From positions 1 through 39,862 of the forward strand of contig JAUWPW010000008.1 of assembly GCA_030611415.1 (NCBI GenBank): a stretch of DNA of 39,862 nt, in the 5' to 3' direction. This DNA comes from Candidatus Bipolaricaulota bacterium (GTDB lineage: Bacteria > Bipolaricaulota > Bipolaricaulia > UBA7950 > UBA9294). A model generated the notes under the pieces. It was given only the letters and a program-made list of their open reading frames with translations. It had not been told where the DNA came from and made no database searches. Shown in pieces: positions 4,489 through 39,597 of the stretch; the stretch's first letter is position 1, and each line of letters begins with the position of its first letter. A program made the position numbers and the translations under genes.

Positions 4489-4848
4489 TGGTGGAGGTGG
4501 CGGGATTTGAACCCGCGTCCGAAGATAGTGCCACTTGGCATCTACAAGCTTAGAGTCGTATTTTAAGTTCGGCCGATGCCCTCCTACGACCAGGATGACA
4601 CCTGTCTAGCTTCCGAAGATTCATCGTGTCCGCGGGAAGCACGGGGCGCGATATACCCGCTTTTTTGACGCCTGGTTGAAGCTTGCGGGCAGCTCCAGCA
4701 GACGGCCTGCCTAGTTTAAACTAGATGCAGGAACAGAAAATGCGTAGTTATCTTCCGCATTTAGTTGTTTTGTTCGCTAGTTTTGGGAGATAGCGAGAGC
4801 TCCGCTTGCAGCCTTGCTTTACTAACTCCGTCGAATCCATTCACCCCC
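4489..4848 (-). ncRNA. ssrA: Transfer-messenger RNA (tmRNA)
   Basis: The 360-base gene ends with a tRNA-like T-arm, GACGCGGGTTCAAATCCCGC, then CACCTCC-A-CCA, so CCA is encoded. Its 5' end GGGGGTG pairs with CACCTCC to form the 7-bp acceptor stem and is followed by the typical AATGGATTCGACGG. tmRNA with SmpB rescues stalled ribosomes and tags the unfinished protein. The best tag frame begins at GCG (4758-4756) and reads AEDNYAFSVPASSLN before TAG at 4713-4711. The (E)DNYA block matches usual tags, but the end differs from the common ALAA. A 14-bp palindrome, CTAGTTTAAACTAG, spans the tag stop. The gene is one-piece (not permuted). Confidence 0.96.
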
Positions 4849-26658: not shown

Positions 26659-28413
26659 CTACCAACCGCCTCCGCCACCGCCACCAAACCCTCCGCCGGA
26701 AAACCCTCCGCCGAACGAACTACTGCCGCCCCAGGCAGAGTGCCCCCCTGAGCTTGCTCGTGGGGCTGAGACAAATGTACGCTCCATCCCTGTGGAAATG
26801 TGCATGATCGATAAGGCAAATAGATGCGCACTGAAGACAGGGCTTACTCCAACGTACCACTCTGGAGGTTGTTCAAACATTCCCTCAAACTGCTTGGTCC
26901 AGATAGAGGTTAGGTTAAGAGCCATAGCGTAGGGAAGAAGTTTCTCAAATAGCTTTGGGTTCTTCTTTGGCGCGTCATGAAATTCCATTTTCTCTATCTC
27001 GGCACGGCCAATATACTCAGAAAGGCCTAGAAGATCCTGTAATACATTAACACCTTTCCTGGTCTTCCGCGGCATAATTGGAGAAAAAGCAAGGATAACC
27101 AAGCCAGAAATAGCAATAGCTGCTCCCATGTACAAAGAGGAAAGGACAACACCAAGAGCAACCCCACCAAAGAGAATCATCATTCCGAAACCCATGTATG
27201 AACGGCGTGTACGCTCCGGGTTGTGCGGGTAGTACCCCTTGTTGATAAGTCCGGTATACAGATCTGACTTGATCTTGGGAAGGACCTTGTAGAACTCGTT
27301 TTCCAGCGTGGATAGGGTCCGCTCCTCTGAGTGAGCATCATCAAAAATGCTTGTAAGCAGGGTTTGTTCGACTTTGGACAACTGGGTATCCGCCTCTTTG
27401 AGCCTGATGAAGTCGTAGTCAAGTGGTGCGCTACGGCCAAATAGCCCCTTTACTTTTGAGACAACTCCTAGTTCGTCTTCGGCAATCTCTTTGATCTTGA
27501 GGTATCCTTTTACCGCTAGGCTAATTACCATTGCTGAGATGTCGCGCAAGTCAGCACGATCGTCAATCAATACTCCAGCCTCACCGGCGTGCATTCCGGG
27601 AGGTGGAGCAAAGCGTGGAGCAATGGTGCCTTTGACTGGATCTTTCCCCTTGGTGAACCACAGGAAAGCCATTGCAATGAGCGTGACGAGCGGTAGGGCG
27701 GCGTACTTGTTTGCAGACAGAAACCACAGACTGCGCTGCCATGTTGTTGGTGCAGGAATCCCGACCGCTTTTCGCGGGATTGCAACATCAATTGTCAGTC
27801 CTTCGCCAGGAGAAAGATCTACCGCTGTAAACAGGAAGCGGCCTTTAGCATCCAAGGTAGCTGGTCCTCCTCGCGCGATGGTGCCGTAGTAGCCAACATA
27901 AGAGGTGGTTGAGACTTCATCTAGCGGTACACCAGGAGGGAGCTGAACACTGGCACTAACACGATTGATCGGGATGGTCCACTTGTTTCCGGTGACATTC
28001 CAATAGAGCTGGATATAGTCTTCTTTGAACAAAAGTGCGCGGTTGACAGAGTAACAAATTGTGTAGGTATGCGTACCTGTGACTGTCACATTTGGGTCAC
28101 CGATACGAATGAGCGTATTTCGTCCATGTCTTTGTGTTGTGTAATGAGCTTTTGTGGCATCGCTTTCGATTGATGTAATGTTAAGGTCAATAGTAAGGTT
28201 TTCTCCGGTTGGGCGACGGTAGGATATAGGAATCTCACGCTCTATTCCATGGTGAGGGCTGTAGAAAATAACTGTGAGGGTTTCTTTGATGTTGAGCGTC
28301 CCTGTTTCATCAAGTGCGATATCTGCACGGAAGTCGGTTATCCGTAGAGTTGCAGACCCGGTGACGAAAAGGGTACAAAGCAAAACGATGGAAACAAGAG
28401 TTTTCCGGATCAA
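26659..28413 (-). CDS. DUF2207 membrane protein with Gly-rich C-terminus
   Basis: A 584-residue protein. The N-terminal signal-like segment leads into a DUF2207-type extracytoplasmic domain (ADIALDETGTLNIKETLTV, YYSPHHGIEREIPI and similar). A membrane helix around 230-255 follows, then a cytosolic-looking region from 280, two adjacent helices near 400-445, and a tail ending SSFGGGFSGGGFGGGGGGGW. This is the domain order of YciQ-like proteins. The biochemical role is unknown. The start is TTG at 28413, overlapping the lemA stop (TTGA) by four bases. lemA and DUF2207 genes are commonly paired, so the two proteins probably act together in the membrane. Confidence 0.9.
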   Translation of the reverse strand: MIRKTLVSIVLLCTLFVTGSATLRITDFRADIALDETGTLNIKETLTVIFYSPHHGIEREIPISYRRPTGENLTIDLNITSIESDATKAHYTTQRHGRNTLIRIGDPNVTVTGTHTYTICYSVNRALLFKEDYIQLYWNVTGNKWTIPINRVSASVQLPPGVPLDEVSTTSYVGYYGTIARGGPATLDAKGRFLFTAVDLSPGEGLTIDVAIPRKAVGIPAPTTWQRSLWFLSANKYAALPLVTLIAMAFLWFTKGKDPVKGTIAPRFAPPPGMHAGEAGVLIDDRADLRDISAMVISLAVKGYLKIKEIAEDELGVVSKVKGLFGRSAPLDYDFIRLKEADTQLSKVEQTLLTSIFDDAHSEERTLSTLENEFYKVLPKIKSDLYTGLINKGYYPHNPERTRRSYMGFGMMILFGGVALGVVLSSLYMGAAIAISGLVILAFSPIMPRKTRKGVNVLQDLLGLSEYIGRAEIEKMEFHDAPKKNPKLFEKLLPYAMALNLTSIWTKQFEGMFEQPPEWYVGVSPVFSAHLFALSIMHISTGMERTFVSAPRASSGGHSAWGGSSSFGGGFSGGGFGGGGGGGW

Positions 28414-28964
28414 AATCTTGCCCTAGGAGCTTCTCTTTGTTCCTCGTTTGGTAGCATGTAGAACTCTCGCTTCTGAAAGTGAAACATGTTAGCGATGACG
28501 TTCTGAGGGAAAATACGAATGCGGGTGTTGAAATCACGTACTACTGCGTTGTAATACACGCGTGAACGCTGGATGGTATCTTCTACTTGCTCGAAGCTCC
28601 GTTGAAGCTCGAGGAAGTTTTCATTGGCTTTCAATTCAGGGTAGTTCTCTACTACGGCAAATAGTGACTTAAGAGTATTCTTAAGGCCTTCTTCGGCAAG
28701 TGCCTGTTCTTTTGGAGAAGACGCGTTGATCGCCTGCGTGCGAGCAACGGTCACTTGTTCAAATACTTTCTTTTCATGAGAGGCATAACCCTTAACTGTT
28801 TCTACTAGATTTGGGATAAGGTCGTAACGGCGCTTGAGCTGGACATCAATATCTTGCCACGATTCCTTAGCACGCACCTGTAATTTGACGAGTCGGTTGT
28901 AGTTTAGAATAGCCCACGCAGCAACAGCCACAACAATTAATAAGACATAAACGCCAGCACTCAT
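28410..28964 (-). CDS. lemA: LemA-family protein
   Basis: A 184-residue protein with a single N-terminal membrane helix (VLLIVVAVAAWAILNY). A long helical bundle with the family block WQDIDVQLKRRYDLIPNLVE, then GYASHEKKVFEQVTVAR and YYNAVVRDFNTRIRIFPQNV, follow. LemA proteins are widespread but their function is unresolved; in Listeria a relative yields an antigenic peptide. GGAGG lies upstream, and a strong promoter (28992-29020) is seen. It is translationally coupled to the DUF2207 gene. Confidence 0.95.
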   Translation of the reverse strand: MSAGVYVLLIVVAVAAWAILNYNRLVKLQVRAKESWQDIDVQLKRRYDLIPNLVETVKGYASHEKKVFEQVTVARTQAINASSPKEQALAEEGLKNTLKSLFAVVENYPELKANENFLELQRSFEQVEDTIQRSRVYYNAVVRDFNTRIRIFPQNVIANMFHFQKREFYMLPNEEQREAPRARF

Positions 28965-29128: not shown

Positions 29129-30196
29129 ATGCATAAGCGGCTTTTTACCCCTGGTCCGACTGAAGTCAGGGCCGACATTCTAAAGGAACTCTCAACTCCA
29201 CAAATTCATCATCGGTCTCCTGAATTTGGTGAGCTCTACGCTGGAATTCAAGTGAAATTGAAGCAACTCCTGTTTACGGAGAATCCTGTCTTCTTGTTCA
29301 CCTCTTCGTCAACTGGGGCCATGGAATCGGCAGTGACAAATCTTGTTGGTAAACGCTGTCTTAGTTTGGTGAATGGCGCGTTCTCGAAGCGATGGCACGA
29401 AATCACACAGGCAAATGCTGTTCCGTGTGATGCTTTCTCAATCGATTGGGACAAGGCACTCAAGCCAGAAATGGTCGAGGAGCAGCTAGAAACGGGGAAA
29501 TATGATGCTGTGACCTTGGTGTTGAATGAAACCTCTACAGGTCTTCTGAACCCAGTTGCCGACATTGCCGAGGTAGTTGCTTGCTATCCGGATGTGTTTC
29601 TTCTTGTTGATGCAGTGAGTGGAATGGCAGGGGTAAAGATCGACACCGATGCCTGGAAGCTTGACTTTGTCCTTGCGGGGGTGCAGAAGGCATTTGCGCT
29701 TCCTGCAGGTCTTGCTGTAGCAGCCGTGAGCGAGCGAGCGCTTGCTCGGTCAGAGCACGTTCCACCACGTAGTTACTACTTTAGCCTGCCCAATATGTAC
29801 AAGGCACACAAGAAGAACCAAACTCCATCAACGCCAGCGATTCCACATCTGTTTGCACTGGACGCACAGCTTACGAACATGCTTGCCGAGGGTTTGGAGG
29901 AGCGATTTGCGCGTCACGAAAAAATGGCGAAAGTGGTGCAGAACTGGTCAAAGAAATACTTCGATATTTATCCTGAAGAAGGTTACTGGTCGAAAACTCT
30001 TACCTGCATAAAGAATACGCGCGGAATCTCAATTAGTGAGTTGGTTGATAACCTGGCCAACGATTACAATCTTCGGATATCGAATGGCTATGGCTCTATC
30101 AAGGAGAAAACATTTCGTATTGCCCATATGGGAGACACTCAGCTTGACGAAATCGAGGGCGTCCTAAAGGCAATTGAGACGGTAGTTAACCTGTAA
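29129..30196 (+). CDS. Class V aminotransferase, serine-pyruvate/phosphoserine type
   Basis: A 355-residue PLP enzyme of the alanine-glyoxylate/serine-pyruvate subgroup. FTPGPTEVRADIL at the start and TSSSTGAMES bind cofactor phosphate. FLLVDAVSGMAG provides the Asp near 162 that contacts the pyridine nitrogen, and AGVQKAFALPAG carries Schiff-base Lys187. Next to serA it probably makes phosphoserine from 3-phosphohydroxypyruvate (SerC role), as AGXT-like enzymes next to serA are thought to do in other thermophiles and anaerobes. A glyoxylate role cannot be excluded. The ATG at 29129 has AAGGAGG just upstream; an in-frame extension to 29030 is unlikely. Confidence 0.9.
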   Translation: MHKRLFTPGPTEVRADILKELSTPQIHHRSPEFGELYAGIQVKLKQLLFTENPVFLFTSSSTGAMESAVTNLVGKRCLSLVNGAFSKRWHEITQANAVPCDAFSIDWDKALKPEMVEEQLETGKYDAVTLVLNETSTGLLNPVADIAEVVACYPDVFLLVDAVSGMAGVKIDTDAWKLDFVLAGVQKAFALPAGLAVAAVSERALARSEHVPPRSYYFSLPNMYKAHKKNQTPSTPAIPHLFALDAQLTNMLAEGLEERFARHEKMAKVVQNWSKKYFDIYPEEGYWSKTLTCIKNTRGISISELVDNLANDYNLRISNGYGSIKEKTFRIAHMGDTQLDEIEGVLKAIETVVNL

Positions 30197-30209
30197 GGAA
30201 GGAGGGAGA

Positions 30210-31130
30210 ATGGGATTAAGGGTGCTTGTGTCAGATCCATTGGCTGATGACTCTGTTGCAGCAATGCGACAAGCCGGCCTTAGTGTGGATGTGAAGACTG
30301 ATCTTTCGCCAGATGAACTAGCCAAAGAAATTGTGAACTATGATGTGATTGTTGTTCGTAGTGCAACCAAACTACGTGGTCCAATTATCGATAGTGCCAG
30401 CAATCTGCGCCTCATTGTCCGTGCTGGTGTTGGCATGGATAACATCGATGTAGACTATGCAAGATCAAAACACATTGAGGTGCGTAACACGCCGGCAGCA
30501 AGTTCAAGCTCTGTTGCAGAACTTGCCCTGGGTCACCTTCTTTCGCTAGCCCGGTACATTGGACGTGGTACAGTTTCCTTAAAAAACGGAAGCTGGGAGA
30601 AGAAGGCCCTAAAAGGCGTGGAGATTGAGGGAAAGACGCTTGGCATCATCGGGATCGGACGCATTGGGCAATTGCTGGCCAAGAAAGCGAAAGCTTTGGG
30701 CATGGAAATAGTTGCGTTTGATAAGTTCATTAACGAGAGCCCTTTAGCTGAACTGGTGACAATGGTGTCATTTGATAGGTTACTCAAAGAAAGCGATTTC
30801 ATCTCGCTACATATCCCATTTGATCCCAAAGAAGGGGCAGTAATTGGAAGGGATGAATTTGCGTTGATGAAGGATTCCGTGAGGATTATTAACTGTGCTC
30901 GAGGAGGAGTGATCGATGAGGTGGCGTTGGCTGACGCTTTGGCATCGGGACAAGTGGCTGGTGCGGCCCTCGACGTGTTTGCGGCTGAACCGCCAGATGT
31001 GAACGATGCATTGTTTTCCCAACCGAGCTTGTCCCTTACTCCACACATTGGAGCAGCCACTGTTGAGGCACAAGGGCGTGTAGGGAAGGAGGCAGCCGAG
31101 ATCGTTATTGAATTCGCCAAATCCAATTAA
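30210..31130 (+). CDS. serA: D-3-phosphoglycerate dehydrogenase, short form
   Basis: This 306-residue D-isomer-specific 2-hydroxyacid dehydrogenase has the NAD-binding motif LGIIGIGRIGQLLAKKA near 145. Catalytic Arg lies in RVAGVGMDNID-type and RIINCARGGVIDE blocks, and the catalytic His in LTPHIGAATVEAQ. It lacks the C-terminal ACT domain of E. coli SerA, so it may not be serine-inhibited by that route. It would oxidise 3-phosphoglycerate to 3-phosphohydroxypyruvate, the first step of serine synthesis. GGAGG precedes the ATG. It lies 13 bases after the aminotransferase and 9 bases before the DUF1015 gene. Glycerate/lactate dehydrogenase activity is an alternative, made unlikely by the neighbours. 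Confidence 0.9.
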   Translation: MGLRVLVSDPLADDSVAAMRQAGLSVDVKTDLSPDELAKEIVNYDVIVVRSATKLRGPIIDSASNLRLIVRAGVGMDNIDVDYARSKHIEVRNTPAASSSSVAELALGHLLSLARYIGRGTVSLKNGSWEKKALKGVEIEGKTLGIIGIGRIGQLLAKKAKALGMEIVAFDKFINESPLAELVTMVSFDRLLKESDFISLHIPFDPKEGAVIGRDEFALMKDSVRIINCARGGVIDEVALADALASGQVAGAALDVFAAEPPDVNDALFSQPSLSLTPHIGAATVEAQGRVGKEAAEIVIEFAKSN

Positions 31131-31139
31131 GGGGGCGTC

Positions 31140-32429
31140 ATGTCACGGATCATTCCATTTCGTGGTATTCGTTACAATAAGGACGAGATCGACGATTTGG
31201 CTACAGTTGTAACACAGCCATACGATCGAATCGATGGGCCTGAGCAAAAGGCGTACTACGAGCGTAGCCCATACAATATCGTGCGTATCATAAAGGGCAA
31301 GGCAGCTCTGCCTGGTGATGTTTACGCTAGCGCAGCTTCCTTCTTCTTGGACTGGCTAAATGAAGGTATCCTGAAGCGTGACGAGACACCTTCTCTCTAT
31401 GTCTATCACCAGGAATACACCTACGCCAATGAACGTCTAACTAGAAAAGGCTTTATTGCTTTAGGGAAGCTTGAGCCGGAACAGGTACATGCTCACGAGC
31501 GTACCTTAAGGGGACCTAAAGAGGATCGCCTGCGGTTAATGCGGGCTACAGAGGGAAACTTCGGTCAGATTTTCATGCTGTATTCTGATCCAAAACGCGC
31601 AGCTGACAAAGAACTGGAGGCGGCAATTAATGAGAGGCCACCTATAATATCGCTAAAGGATGACCTTGGAAACCGACACCTGGTATGGCAAGTCATGGAC
31701 AAGAGAGTGATTGGTGAAGTTCAGGCTGCCATCGCCGACAAGGATCTGTACATTGCTGATGGGCATCATCGCTATGAAACGGCAGTTAACTTTATGGGTG
31801 AGTGCAAGAAACAGGGATGGAAACCGACTGCGCTAGAGTCATTCGATTACCGCATGATGACTCTATTCAACATCGATGAGCCAGGAATGACGATCCGACC
31901 AATTCATCGATTGATACACGGCTTGCCTGATTTCGACCCGCAGTTGTTTCTCACAAAGCTGGAGAAGGATCTTGCCGTAAAGCGGTGTTCAACGCTAGCG
32001 GAAATGGAGGCAGCGTTAAAGGCAGGGCAAGACCATCATACCTTTGGGTGCTACACAGGTGGAATCTTCAGCACGCTCACTGTGCGTGATGAGAACTTGA
32101 TCGATCGACTAGTCACTGTTGAGCGATCGATGGATTGGAAACGCCTCGATGTCTCCGTCTTGCACATTGCCATTCTGGAGAGACACCTCGGGATTGATGC
32201 TGCAGCACTTGAGGAGGAGCGAAACATTACCTACAGTCATGATGCACTAGATGCTGTAGACAGGGTTGATCAAGAAGATGAGCAGATCTTCTTTTGCTTA
32301 AACCCGACGAGTCCGGATGAAGTACGACGGGTGGCAGATCATGGAGAGAAAATGCCTCAAAAATCAACCGACTTCTACCCAAAACTTCTGACGGGTCTTG
32401 TTCTTAGCAGAATGGAAATACAGAAATAG
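31140..32429 (+). CDS. DUF1015 family protein, possible serine kinase-like enzyme
   Basis: A 429-residue DUF1015/COG4198 protein. It starts IIPFRGIRYNKDEIDDLATV, has a TQPYDRI block (24-31), an ERSPYNIVRI block near 41-50 and an HERT block near 119. At 203-215 it reads LYIADGHHRYETA. That DGHHR motif resembles the ParB/sulfiredoxin-like motif of serine kinases such as archaeal SerK and staphylococcal SbnI, where the His and Arg contact phosphate; this comparison is from memory of the families. It is cotranscribed with the aminotransferase and serA. A role in serine or phosphoserine metabolism is therefore inferred, perhaps interconverting serine and phosphoserine. No serB is seen in the window. 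Confidence 0.9.
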   Translation: MSRIIPFRGIRYNKDEIDDLATVVTQPYDRIDGPEQKAYYERSPYNIVRIIKGKAALPGDVYASAASFFLDWLNEGILKRDETPSLYVYHQEYTYANERLTRKGFIALGKLEPEQVHAHERTLRGPKEDRLRLMRATEGNFGQIFMLYSDPKRAADKELEAAINERPPIISLKDDLGNRHLVWQVMDKRVIGEVQAAIADKDLYIADGHHRYETAVNFMGECKKQGWKPTALESFDYRMMTLFNIDEPGMTIRPIHRLIHGLPDFDPQLFLTKLEKDLAVKRCSTLAEMEAALKAGQDHHTFGCYTGGIFSTLTVRDENLIDRLVTVERSMDWKRLDVSVLHIAILERHLGIDAAALEEERNITYSHDALDAVDRVDQEDEQIFFCLNPTSPDEVRRVADHGEKMPQKSTDFYPKLLTGLVLSRMEIQK

Positions 32430-32513: not shown

Positions 32514-33185
32514 TTAGCGCTGTTCAGCGTGCTCACCAAGCCCAGGAATCCTTGCCCGGTGTTCCAGCAATCGCAATAGTTGGGAGATGATAAAGACCAG
32601 TACCAGGTAGAATAGGGCCACAACAACAAATACCTCGAAGTAGCGGAAGTTGCGCGCAGCAATCCGTTTTCCAACACCCATCAAGTCGAGCAATGTTACC
32701 GAGAAGACGATGGAAGAGTATTTTACCATCAAGATTAGTTCATTCGACCATGACGGGATAACAATACGAAATGCCTGTGGTAGTACGATGTAACGAATAG
32801 CTTGTGGTAGGCTCATCCCAATTGCACGTGCGGCCATGAGTTGGCCTTGGTTGACGGCTTGGATTGCCCCACGCAGGTACTCTGCTTGGTATGCTCCTGT
32901 GTTGAGCCCTAATGCGAGAACTCCGCTGATGAATGCGGACGGGTAAATTCCCCAGCTTGGAAGACCGTAATAAACCATGAGTAGCTGTACCAATAGCGGT
33001 GTGCCGCGGAAGATCTGGATATAGATACTGCATGGAGTGGAGATCAATCGGTTTCCGTAAACACGCCCCAATGCGAGCAGAATTCCAAGTACAATTCCCA
33101 TTGCGATACATGCTGTCGTAATTTGCAGGGTCAGAAGAAGGCCCTGCGTGAGCTGTGGAAGCCACGCTAAGTCAAATACCATCAC
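32514..33185 (-). CDS. Polar amino-acid ABC transporter permease (second)
   Basis: A 223-residue membrane subunit of the HisM/GlnP type. It has five or so helices, the N-terminal LTQGLLLTLQITTACIAMGI, and the conserved EAA-like loop ending in IGMSLPQAIRYIVLPQAFRI, followed by IPSWSNELILMVKYSSIVF. Its 5' end overlaps the ATPase gene by four bases. It is the last gene of the binding-protein, permease, ATPase, permease unit and with the other permease would form a heterodimeric channel. Confidence 0.93.
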   Translation of the reverse strand: MMVFDLAWLPQLTQGLLLTLQITTACIAMGIVLGILLALGRVYGNRLISTPCSIYIQIFRGTPLLVQLLMVYYGLPSWGIYPSAFISGVLALGLNTGAYQAEYLRGAIQAVNQGQLMAARAIGMSLPQAIRYIVLPQAFRIVIPSWSNELILMVKYSSIVFSVTLLDLMGVGKRIAARNFRYFEVFVVVALFYLVLVFIISQLLRLLEHRARIPGLGEHAEQR

Positions 33186-33931
33186 TCCGTCTCCCCGTAC
33201 AGCTCTGTGATCTTGTTCAGGAATTCTCCTGTCCGCGGATGCTTTGGGGCGGAGAACATTTGCTGTGGGTTGCCCTGCTCGACAATGACTCCGTGTTCCA
33301 TAAACACAATTTCGTCGGCAACTGCACGGGCAAAACCCATTTCATGTGTAACGACCAGCATTGTCATTCCATCCTTAGCCAGCTTGATCATCACCTCGAG
33401 AACCTCGCCAATCAGTTCCGGGTCAAGGGCCGAGGTTGGCTCATCAAACAGTATTAGCTTTGGCTCCATTGCTAGAGCCCTGGCAATAGATACACGTTGT
33501 TGCTGGCCGCCGGAAAGCTGTGCCGGATAGGCATCAATTTTGTCATCGAGCCCAACTCGTTCTAGCTCTTTCATTGCGAGCTTTCTTGCGTCTTCCTTTC
33601 TTATTCCCTTTACCTTAGTAAGGCCAATGCTCACATTTCGCAGTGTGTTCAAGTGCGAAAACAGGTTAAAATCTTGAAAGACGAAGCCCATTTGAGCGCG
33701 TAGTCTGTTAATGTTGCATTTAGGGTGTGTAACTTCAACTCCATCCAACCAGACCCGGCCTTTGTCTGGTGGGGTCAACTGATTAATACAGCGAAGGAAT
33801 GTGCTTTTCCCGGTTCCAGATGGGCCAATCACAACCATGGTTTCGCCGCGTTCAAGCTCCAGCGAGACCCCCTTTAAAACCTCCTCCTTCCCATACCTTT
33901 TGTGGATATTCTCAGCCTTTAGTAGACTCAT
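33182..33931 (-). CDS. Polar amino-acid ABC transporter ATPase (GlnQ-like)
   Basis: A 249-residue ATPase with Walker A GPSGTGKSTFLRCIN, the Q-loop in MGFVFQDFNLF, signature LSGGQQQRVSIARAL, Walker B LILFDEPTSALDPE and switch His in VVTHEMGFAR. The block DFNLFSHLNTLRNV is typical of HisP/GlnQ. It energises uptake of an amino acid through the two flanking permeases. It overlaps both permease genes by four bases on each side. Confidence 0.95.
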   Translation of the reverse strand: MSLLKAENIHKRYGKEEVLKGVSLELERGETMVVIGPSGTGKSTFLRCINQLTPPDKGRVWLDGVEVTHPKCNINRLRAQMGFVFQDFNLFSHLNTLRNVSIGLTKVKGIRKEDARKLAMKELERVGLDDKIDAYPAQLSGGQQQRVSIARALAMEPKLILFDEPTSALDPELIGEVLEVMIKLAKDGMTMLVVTHEMGFARAVADEIVFMEHGVIVEQGNPQQMFSAPKHPRTGEFLNKITELYGETE

Positions 33932-34578
33932 TTGTTTTGGGTTCCTCCCTTCATCTGTAGGCCAGGTATTCGTAGTCGTCCTTCAAGCCACCCCAGGCTT
34001 CGGTTACCGCTGTAGGTCAATACAAAAAAGATCACTGCTACAGCTAAGTAAGCAAGCATTGCCAGCTCATAGTGTCGATCCATAATAATGCGTGCGTGAC
34101 GCAGGACCTCATTTAACCCTACCACGTAGGCGAGTGTGGTGTCTTTTACCACAGATGAGAACTCGTTTGACCAGCCAGCAAGAGAAAGACGAAGAGCTTG
34201 AGGAATGATGATTGTAATAATTCCTTGTAGTCGACTCATTCCCATCGAGCGTGCAGCCATCATTTGCCCCTGCGGAATGGCCTGGATAGCTCCACGGAAG
34301 ATTTGTGATTGATACGCGGAAGAACGAATTCCAAGAGCAAGGGTTGCAGCAATAAAAGGTGGGATATTTACACCAAATTGTGATGGTCCAAAGTAGAACA
34401 AGAACAACAGAACAAGGGCAGGAATACTGCGAAAGACCCAGGCATAGCCTGCGGCAAGTGTACCGGCAAAACGTCCTCCATAAACTTGCAGCAGGGCAAC
34501 AACAGTTCCTAGAAGCAATCCTAGGAACAACAAAGCAAACAATAGTTCAATATTGATCAACGTGGCACGTAAGAGCAT
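33928..34578 (-). CDS. Polar amino-acid ABC transporter permease (first)
   Basis: A 216-residue HisQ/HisM-type permease with about five helices and the conserved IPQGQMMAARSMGMSRLQGI loop. ATG 34578 is the only usual start in this frame, yet the clear GGAGG near 34621 is about 42 bases upstream. The open frame continues up to an in-frame TGA just before that site. A start at the ATA at about 34614 or ATT at about 34605 would give residues IEGIVTIAKSFP ahead of the family N-terminus. Either the ATG is used with a weak site or a rare start is used. It follows the hairpin after the binding-protein gene. Confidence 0.9.
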   Translation of the reverse strand: MLLRATLINIELLFALLFLGLLLGTVVALLQVYGGRFAGTLAAGYAWVFRSIPALVLLFLFYFGPSQFGVNIPPFIAATLALGIRSSAYQSQIFRGAIQAIPQGQMMAARSMGMSRLQGIITIIIPQALRLSLAGWSNEFSSVVKDTTLAYVVGLNEVLRHARIIMDRHYELAMLAYLAVAVIFFVLTYSGNRSLGWLEGRLRIPGLQMKGGTQNK

Positions 34579-34637
34579 GGGGAAGCTCTTTGCAATAGTA
34601 ACAATGCCTTCTATGGGATGCCTCCTTCACTAACTAC

Positions 34638-34677
34638 AAAGAACCTCCCTCCAATCCTTATAGGAGGGAGGTTCTTT
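34638..34677 (-). terminator. Hairpin between binding protein and permease genes
   Basis: AAAGAACCTCCCTCC and GGAGGGAGGTTCTTT pair perfectly over 15 bp with a 10-base loop, 28 bases after the binding-protein stop. TTCTTTGT continues as a modest U-run. Such hairpins between a binding protein and its permeases usually let part of the transcripts stop or stabilise the upstream message, giving excess binding protein. Confidence 0.65.
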
Positions 34678-34705
34678 ACAACTTGGATATTATGTATGAA
34701 TCAGA

Positions 34706-35632
34706 TTACTTACTTGCTTCCTCAGCCATTGCTTTCGCAAAGGCATCTACATCCCTGTCTACCAGGAGAAGGTCCTTACAAACAAGCCAAGCTGCTTCGA
34801 GCTTGTCGTTCGGTGGACCAAAGTAAGCCTTGAGTAGATTATCCCAAGGGCTTCCGGGAGTAACGACTAGTGTTTTTGCCCCTCCCGGTGCCTCAACAAC
34901 CTTAAGGCCTAATTCACTTACTCCTTCATTGATTCTAGGGAGTAGTCCTTCTGGGTCTCCGGGTGCGACGATGAACCCGAAATACTCGTAGGTATTAATT
35001 ATCCCGGCGATCGTAAGTAGATCTGGATAGGCGGAGATGGAAGACTGTGAAGCAGGCTCATCTTGGATCACTGCGTCGAGTCGTCCACTAACTAAATCAA
35101 GGATTGCTGTTGGGTAGAATTCGTACCCTTTTGGCTCGATGTCAAGCCCCGCTCCTTTCAGTTCGTCTTCTACGTAGTAGAAACCTGTCGTTCCATTCTG
35201 AGCTCCTATTGCCTTTCTCGGTCCAAGCCCAGCCATTGCGGTGATAATGTTCAATCCGGAATCCTTGCGTATCACAACCGCCTGATTGGACAAGTAATAC
35301 GGCTCAGAATAATCAATCGTTTTTTCACGCTCAGCGGTGATGGTAAACCCGGACACGCCTAGATCGGCCTTCCCTGTAATCACGTTTTGGATAATCACGT
35401 CAAAGCCAGTGTTCAAGATCTCAACCTCGAAGCCAGCAACAATTGCAATCATACGTATTGCGTCAAGGTCAAATCCAAAGAATTCACCATTGACAGTAAC
35501 CATCTCAAATGGCGCCCACGGGATATCCGAAGCGACTATGTATTTGTCCTTTGCTACAACCAGTCCACCACTAGCAATCAGCACTATCATTGTTAAGACT
35601 ACTACCCCAGCCATCGCCCTATGAATTTTCAT
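34706..35632 (-). CDS. Amino-acid ABC transporter substrate-binding protein
   Basis: A 308-residue periplasmic-type binding protein with an N-terminal signal peptide (MKIHRAMAGVVVLTMIVLIA and a following VVAKDKY cleavage region). There is no lipobox Cys, so it should be a soluble secreted protein. The SBP_bac_3 blocks are DIPWAPFEMV, FFGFDLDAIRMIA, GKADLGVSGFTITAEREKTI and DYSEPYYLSNQ, with an Arg in the ligand-site block. RLDAVIQDEPA marks the second domain. The ATG at 35632 has AGGAGG at 11 bases' spacing; GTG 35644 and CTG 35641 lie in the same frame upstream. The likely cargo is a polar or basic amino acid. Confidence 0.92.
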   Translation of the reverse strand: MKIHRAMAGVVVLTMIVLIASGGLVVAKDKYIVASDIPWAPFEMVTVNGEFFGFDLDAIRMIAIVAGFEVEILNTGFDVIIQNVITGKADLGVSGFTITAEREKTIDYSEPYYLSNQAVVIRKDSGLNIITAMAGLGPRKAIGAQNGTTGFYYVEDELKGAGLDIEPKGYEFYPTAILDLVSGRLDAVIQDEPASQSSISAYPDLLTIAGIINTYEYFGFIVAPGDPEGLLPRINEGVSELGLKVVEAPGGAKTLVVTPGSPWDNLLKAYFGPPNDKLEAAWLVCKDLLLVDRDVDAFAKAMAEEASK

Positions 35633-35663
35633 ACTATACAGCACCTCCTATGTAAAGTTATTC

Positions 35664-36027: not shown

Positions 36028-39597
<3,570 letters not shown>

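Follow-up and report, generated by a model that had tools for sequence, protein, structure and literature searches.

A DUF1015 protein encoded next to serA in Candidatus Bipolaricaulota: a candidate SerK-type serine phosphotransferase

The three-gene serA locus

The DNA analysed here, called the window, is a stretch of 39,862 nucleotides from a Candidatus Bipolaricaulota bacterium (assembly GCA_030611415.1, contig JAUWPW010000008.1). At positions 29129-32429 it carries three genes in head-to-tail order (Table 1), which code for an aminotransferase, a D-3-phosphoglycerate dehydrogenase (SerA) and a DUF1015 protein; the last is the subject of this work. A preliminary description, made from the DNA letters alone, had noticed the close spacing of this putative serine operon, the lack of serB in the window and a DGHHR motif in the DUF1015 protein that resembles the active site of ParB/sulfiredoxin-fold serine kinases. 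It had proposed that the protein interconverts serine and phosphoserine or regulates the pathway. The spacing is as described, with 13 bases between the aminotransferase gene and serA and 9 bases between serA and the DUF1015 gene.

A longer reading frame of the aminotransferase gene, from 29030, is less likely than the start given in Table 1 because AAGGAGG sits immediately 5' of the ATG at 29129. The aminotransferase matches Pfam Aminotran_5 with 73 bits; its best NCBIfam model is BhcA (210 bits), serC_3 reaches 73 bits, and both are under their cut-offs. For SerA, the top NCBIfam match is PGDH TIGR01327 with 355 bits, under the 454-bit cut-off and with 302 of 525 positions covered. The DUF1015 protein matches PF06245 with 292.7 bits against a curated cut-off of 25.8. 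This is the only Pfam family found in the protein, and the gene is the single DUF1015 match in the source assembly. At E ≤ 1, no NCBIfam model matched the protein, and Pfam and NCBIfam gave no HAD or serB match. A promoter and terminator scan yielded no more predictions than in shuffles.

Pfam gives no function for PF06245, and no PDB sequence matches DUF1015 closely; the preliminary description likewise knew of no assigned activity. Our searches, which covered few subscription journals, found no assignment of serine kinase activity to DUF1015 (mostly by titles), no title on a bacterial pyrophosphate-linked serine kinase and no paper on a SerK-type serine kinase with Thermotoga. Work on a pyrophosphate-dependent serine kinase may already exist, and we do not claim this activity as unpublished. 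In the accessible parts of two other papers, one describes DUF1015 in Porphyromonas as a neighbour of serC and of a gene for an NAD(P)-binding protein, and the other merely lists the family. A 2025 PNAS survey of the ParB-CTPase fold (PMC12704722, accessible text) has "DU1015" among the domains that are fused to the fold and were chosen for nucleotide-binding tests; the section that names nucleotide binders does so without DUF1015, and whether any DUF1015 protein was purified is a matter for its supplement. The link between DUF1015 and the ParB fold is, in any case, already in print.

Predicted fold and conserved residues

The AlphaFold model of the DUF1015 protein, built with 49 sequences, has a mean predicted local distance difference test score (pLDDT) of 95.5 and a predicted template modelling score (pTM) of 0.92; for residues 84-429 alone, built with 40 sequences, the values are 95.6 and 0.90. 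The model has the two-domain fold of SerK. Searched with Foldseek, the full model gave ten matches at E ≤ 0.001, nine of which belong to SerK, to SbnI or to 1vk1, the Pyrococcus relative of SerK (E from 4e-8 to 9e-4), and the tenth is 1wdt with a probability of 0.18. All nine matches of residues 84-429 at the same threshold are SerK, 1vk1 or SbnI. With VIA-align, the full model reached Z scores of 14.1-12.8 for SerK and 1vk1 and 12.2-10.9 for SbnI, followed by human sulfiredoxin at 4.8. With residues 84-429, Z was 15.4-13.6 for SerK and 1vk1 and 12.8-11.7 for SbnI, with 209-230 residues aligned; the next rows were sulfiredoxin (6.3-5.5) and ParB (5.8), the latter being absent with the full model. 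Both programs, therefore, place the predicted fold with SerK and SbnI far above all else, which agrees with the kinship that the preliminary description had read from the motif. The matches begin at residue 84 or later. As the root mean square deviation is 4-6 Å, the domains are arranged somewhat differently from those of SerK and SbnI.

Sequence comparison points to the same relatives. A single-sequence search of the PDB with the DUF1015 protein gave nothing meaningful. A profile of 49 DUF1015 sequences, compared with 177,635 PDB sequences, gave four matches at E ≤ 10, which are 1vk1 (E 0.004; 88% identical to SerK) and three SerK sequences (E about 0.04). The matches consist of two colinear stretches, DGHHR and a C-terminal part ending in Lys-Ser/Thr-Thr, which hhalign joined in one alignment of SerK 63-224 with DUF1015 residues 201-411. 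Three MAFFT strategies agreed on the residue correspondences described below, and one control with reversed SerK did not reproduce them. All conservation counts refer to an alignment of 49 DUF1015 sequences, the window's protein included.

The N-terminal extension contains Pro27 and Asp29 (each 49/49) and Tyr28 (47/49).

His119 and Glu120 are conserved in 49/49 and 48/49 sequences, respectively, and Arg130 in 48/49. Residues 118-120 (Ala-His-Glu in the window's protein) are aligned with Pro28-His29-Glu30 of SerK, in which we take Glu30 to be the general base. Glu30 is also the residue altered in the PDB entries titled E30A and E30Q.

DGHHR lies within LYIADGHHRYETA, which spans residues 203-215. 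The likeness to a serine kinase motif that the preliminary description had seen here is borne out, as residues 207-211 align with D69-R73 of SerK.

Lys408, Thr410, Pro414, Lys415 and Gly419 are each conserved in 49/49 sequences. Residues 408-410 are aligned with K221-T223 of SerK, and the Lys-Thr-Thr of SerK is replaced by Lys-Ser-Thr in the window's protein. Glu120 and DGHHR, the residues whose conservation the preliminary description had singled out for checking, are thus both kept and both align with SerK.

It is very improbable that DUF1015 is a regulator or a non-enzymatic ParB-fold protein, the other option of the preliminary description. According to the accessible text of published work, ParB-fold proteins can be switches, and one PDB record gives SbnI the name bifunctional transcriptional regulator/O-phospho-L-serine synthase, by which a second role would be possible. 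In DUF1015, however, Pfam found no helix-turn-helix (HTH) or other credible second domain in the 49 members, the two-domain match goes to SerK and SbnI rather than to ParB, and Glu120 is nearly invariant.

Table 1 Features of the locus and its surroundings (window positions)
Feature	Position	Strand	Remarks
Class V aminotransferase gene	29129-30196	+	Likely phosphoserine aminotransferase; ATG start at 29129
serA, short D-3-phosphoglycerate dehydrogenase	30210-31130	+	306 amino acids; Pfam 2-Hacid_dh and 2-Hacid_dh_C
DUF1015 gene, proposed SerK-type serine/phosphoserine phosphotransferase	31140-32429	+	429 amino acids; PF06245; predicted model
N-terminal extension, residues 1-83	31140-31388	+	Outside the SerK/SbnI structure matches; holds P27-Y28-D29
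His119-Glu120	31494-31499	+	Aligned with SerK His29-Glu30
DGHHR, residues 207-211	31758-31772	+	Aligned with SerK D69-R73; 49/49
Arg257	31908-31910	+	Invariant, 49/49
KSTDFYPK, residues 408-415	32361-32384	+	K408-S409-T410 aligned with SerK K221-T222-T223
ABC transporter genes (permease, ATPase, family 3 binding protein)	32514-35644	-	Convergent with the operon
Pyruvate:ferredoxin oxidoreductase gene	36043-39597		Adjoins the operon region

Operon conservation and the distribution of serB

We searched 30 genomes, the source genome included, and found DUF1015 in 25 of them. In all 20 loci returned (source included), the aminotransferase gene, serA and DUF1015 follow in this order on one strand. 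The spacing between serA and DUF1015 is some 315-380 bases in loci L009 and L012; an extra gene between the two in L009 was considered and rejected, as there are only small overlapping reading frames. In a larger phylum sample (68 genomes, at least 85% complete, source included), DUF1015 is present in 51 genomes; 48 of them carry, immediately upstream and on the same strand, a serA that is at least 50% identical, so the operon of the preliminary description holds up across the phylum. Among the three exceptions, the DUF1015 match lies near a contig start in G014 and G066 but not in G062. Such a serA (at least 50% identity) occurs in 51 genomes of the sample: 49 carry DUF1015, and the other two are among the 17 genomes that lack it; the Fisher p value for co-occurrence is 4e-11, a guide only, as the genomes are related. 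Long open frames in G009 and G007 suggested a SerA-DUF1015 fusion, which was rejected because the two genes are in different frames.

A serB gene was called when a TIGR00338 match exceeded the cut-off of 144.15 bits. None was found in the source assembly (93% complete), which extends the earlier statement on serB from the window to the genome. The sole TIGR00338 match in the source genome is a HAD protein with 89.5 bits and DLDGT as motif I; motif I of SerB is DxDST. Hence, we did not accept it as a clear SerB, although it could be a phosphatase of phosphoserine. This HAD protein (L021 1489-2154; L113-L132) is nearest SerB models and occurs in many genomes of the phylum. Its motif I is D-[LM]-D-G-T in 19 of 20 fetched phylum regions, source included, and the remaining region is the over-cut-off serB match in G057. 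HAD matches are also found in G059-G061, three genomes without a SerA match at E ≤ 1e-40.

In the phylum, serB over the cut-off occurs in 1 of 68 genomes, which lacks DUF1015, and in none of the 51 DUF1015 genomes. In the phylum of Thermogemmatispora, presumably Chloroflexota, 1 of 151 genomes has serB, again without DUF1015, and none of the 102 with DUF1015 has it. Among 50 genomes taken from the 80 distant loci described below, none has serB over and four have it below the cut-off. Since G105 is in two samples and G073 equals G041 by coordinates, these are 201 distinct DUF1015 genomes (source included), with serB in 0/201.

These counts raise the question of whether DUF1015 runs mainly from O-phosphoserine to serine and replaces SerB in serine synthesis, which we regard as doubtful. 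The serC-serA-DUF1015 order resembles a serine synthesis operon, and a Nitrospira (L083) is among the serB-less DUF1015 genomes; as an autotroph, Nitrospira must make serine. On the other hand, the exclusion is not significant (serB in 0/153 with DUF1015 vs 2/66 without in the two phyla pooled; Fisher p 0.09), and most sampled genomes without DUF1015 likewise lack serB. Among the control genomes, three carry DUF1015: serB exceeds the cut-off in Bacteroides ihuae and Methanosarcina acetivorans, and Thermotoga maritima gave no serB match at 1e-10. The exclusion was, therefore, rejected as proof of replacement; the absence of serB fits it without proving it. A non-HAD phosphatase or the HAD protein could also do the step.

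The donor matters for this direction. Forming serine from phosphoserine with ADP or ATP as product is strongly uphill and implausible, but with pyrophosphate (phosphoserine + Pi -> serine + PPi) it would be feasible if pyrophosphate were kept low. In our view, it is rather unlikely that DUF1015 takes the place of SerB in many lineages as a pyrophosphate-linked serine phosphotransferase. If true, the last step of serine synthesis would conserve energy rather than waste phosphate, and genes would be supplied for the enzyme class EC 2.7.1.80, for which we know of no assigned gene. A pyrophosphatase adjoining DUF1015 was rejected as a pattern: the HAD proteins of L027, L054 and L086 are nearest other models, and the one upstream of DUF1015 in L035 is nearest an inorganic diphosphatase model with 156 bits against a cut-off of 245.

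In a wider sample, we analysed the best 80 of at least 581 confirmed DUF1015 stretches, whose record titles name many bacterial groups and some archaea, and 8 of 17 plasmid-collection records with DUF1015. The serine operon, strong in the window's phylum, is patchy here. The order serC-serA-DUF1015 is found in Parabacteroides, Enterococcus and Listeria (plasmid-collection records), and serA lies upstream of DUF1015 in Prevotella (tblastn). The neighbours of the Nonomuraea locus are without annotation.

Besides serC-serA, three kinds of neighbour use O-phospho amino acids. In 3/3 Poribacteria loci, a cysteine synthase gene is directly upstream of DUF1015; the two scanned proteins best match cysKM or cysM with 299-312 bits, under cut-offs of 344-394. 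On a Streptomyces plasmid (L030 1427-5170), an SbnA-like gene, an MFS transporter gene and DUF1015 form a run, with the SbnA-like gene one gene away; its best match is TIGR03945 (253 bits, under the 350 cut-off). Phosphoserine can serve as a substrate for cysteine synthase B as well as for SbnA. The Streptomyces cluster possibly encodes a pathway of the 2,3-diaminopropionate type with DUF1015 in the place of SbnI. The third is cobD in Thiodictyon (L026 205-5266), where a cobalamin riboswitch separates DUF1015 from the divergently oriented genes for cobyrinate synthase, bluB and cobD.

CobD uses threonine phosphate, according to the accessible part of the literature, and DUF1015 is possibly a threonine kinase for cobalamin in Thiodictyon. 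Homoserine dehydrogenase, thrB and aspartate kinase genes are downstream of DUF1015 in Monoglobus pectinilyticus (L025 3107-7927), and a homoserine dehydrogenase gene in L078 (6001-8577). In some branches at least, such neighbourhoods would suit a kinase for a different small hydroxy acid, for instance threonine or homoserine. We hold this to be improbable, since the partners in the window's lineage are serA and the aminotransferase.

A role in cysteine synthesis was rejected for the source genome. Its four PALP matches include no cysteine synthase but a threonine synthase, a Ser/Thr dehydratase-like protein and two D-cysteine desulfhydrase-like pieces on two contigs. Phosphoserine is, therefore, probably not used here for cysteine by the known route. 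We take COG4198 to be DUF1015. Glycine riboswitches were reported before five COG4198 genes (2007; PMC2211319, accessible part). An Rfam scan at gathering level covered the window, all 8 plasmid-collection loci and, of the 80 genome loci, 72 (all but L105-L112); it gave no glycine riboswitch and one cobalamin riboswitch, that of L026.

Elsewhere in the window, a pair of genes for a DUF2207 membrane protein and LemA lies at 26659-28964 on the minus strand, and a tmRNA gene (175.8 bits) at 4489-4848, also on the minus strand.

Proposed reaction and known systems

The fold, the aligned residues and the operon partners are most simply explained if the DUF1015 protein is a phosphotransferase for free serine. 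We consider it likely that the protein is such an enzyme of the SerK/SbnI type and would interconvert serine and O-phosphoserine. This is the interconversion put forward in the preliminary description, and the lack of a clear serB lends it further support. What we observe is the predicted fold, the aligned residues, their conservation and the operon; catalysis, substrate, donor and direction are inferred. In the proposed reaction, Glu120 would deprotonate the hydroxyl group of serine, and the phosphates and the substrate would be held by DGHHR (207-211), Arg257, Lys408, Thr410 and Lys415. Transfer of a phosphoryl group between serine and its donor, be it ADP, ATP or pyrophosphate, would yield O-phosphoserine. 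The neighbouring aminotransferase and SerA would then connect serine to 3-phosphoglycerate via O-phosphoserine and 3-phosphohydroxypyruvate.

Several findings weigh against this assignment. The identity to SerK is low (13-14% in structure alignments), and a fold shared with a kinase is not proof of kinase activity. The probability of the hhalign alignment with SerK is only 54%. A profile of residues 84-262 alone found no match in the PDB, and hhalign aligned this part with SerK over 15 columns only, around DGHHR; the match of Glu120 with Glu30, therefore, rests on the MAFFT alignments. The sole exception at Glu120, L078, has Ser there (the aligned residues are His-Ser, then Glu). The protein has 429 residues compared with 242 in SerK and carries an additional N-terminal segment as well as an insertion; its donor or substrate may therefore be different. 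Within five genes of DUF1015, the serA cluster is found in 5/80 and the aminotransferase cluster in 4/80 of the best 80 distant stretches, and many neighbours look unrelated; those scanned without an evident link include a sigma-54 regulator, a polyprenyl synthetase, an amidase, a methyltransferase and a sugar epimerase.

If the chemistry is right, the chances are about even that serine is phosphorylated and feeds back to 3-phosphoglycerate, as proposed for SerK. The opposite direction, in which serine is made in SerB's place, is somewhat less likely, and another amino acid substrate or role in this operon is quite unlikely. Taken as a whole, serine assimilation, with DUF1015 phosphorylating serine and the aminotransferase and SerA running backwards, is a serious possibility that falls a little short of even. 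The source genome contains SHMT, and genes for pyruvate:ferredoxin oxidoreductase and for an ABC transporter with a family 3 binding protein, presumably for polar amino acids, adjoin the operon. Such assimilation would, however, be of little purpose in autotrophs such as Nitrospira. The SerK paper, in its accessible text, describes the same three kinds of genes and makes the same proposal for Thermococcus.

By this evidence, that is, predicted fold and residues, DUF1015 appears to be a large, divergent and mostly bacterial branch of the SerK/SbnI kind. It is widespread, with 51/68 sampled genomes in the window's phylum and 102/151 in that of Thermogemmatispora. If serine kinase activity is true, SerK chemistry, described as archaeal, would extend into much of the bacterial world, which could explain how phosphoserine is handled in many genomes without a recognised serB.

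The proposed reaction can be set beside five known systems. Sulfiredoxin has the box GGCHR; its catalytic Cys is missing from DUF1015, in which DGHHR occurs without Cys in 49/49 sequences. Canonical ParB, a CTP-dependent DNA clamp, has an HTH DNA-binding domain that Pfam did not find in the window's protein or the other members. EC 2.7.1.80, diphosphate-serine phosphotransferase, an activity from Propionibacterium, is the reaction that the pyrophosphate reading of DUF1015 needs. SbnI, the serine kinase that serves staphyloferrin B synthesis (5uje, 6nr6, 5ujd), matches the predicted DUF1015 fold at low identity, and the Streptomyces DUF1015 gene stands in a run with transporter and SbnA-like genes.

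SerK (TK0378; PDB 5x0b; Pyrococcus relative 1vk1), the ADP-dependent free serine kinase, is the closest. The two-domain fold predicted for DUF1015 matches SerK along almost its entire chain, and DUF1015 shares the aligned positions of Glu30, DGHHR and Lys-Thr-Thr; it differs by its N-terminal extension and by the insertion, which stands before DGHHR. According to the accessible text of the SerK paper, the donor of the Thermococcus enzyme is ADP and not ATP or pyrophosphate, deletion data led the authors to propose a flow of serine back to 3-phosphoglycerate, and clear-cut homologues were not found in bacteria. In three Desulfurococcales, the same text notes, serK has serA and aminotransferase genes nearby; this trio stands as an operon in the window.

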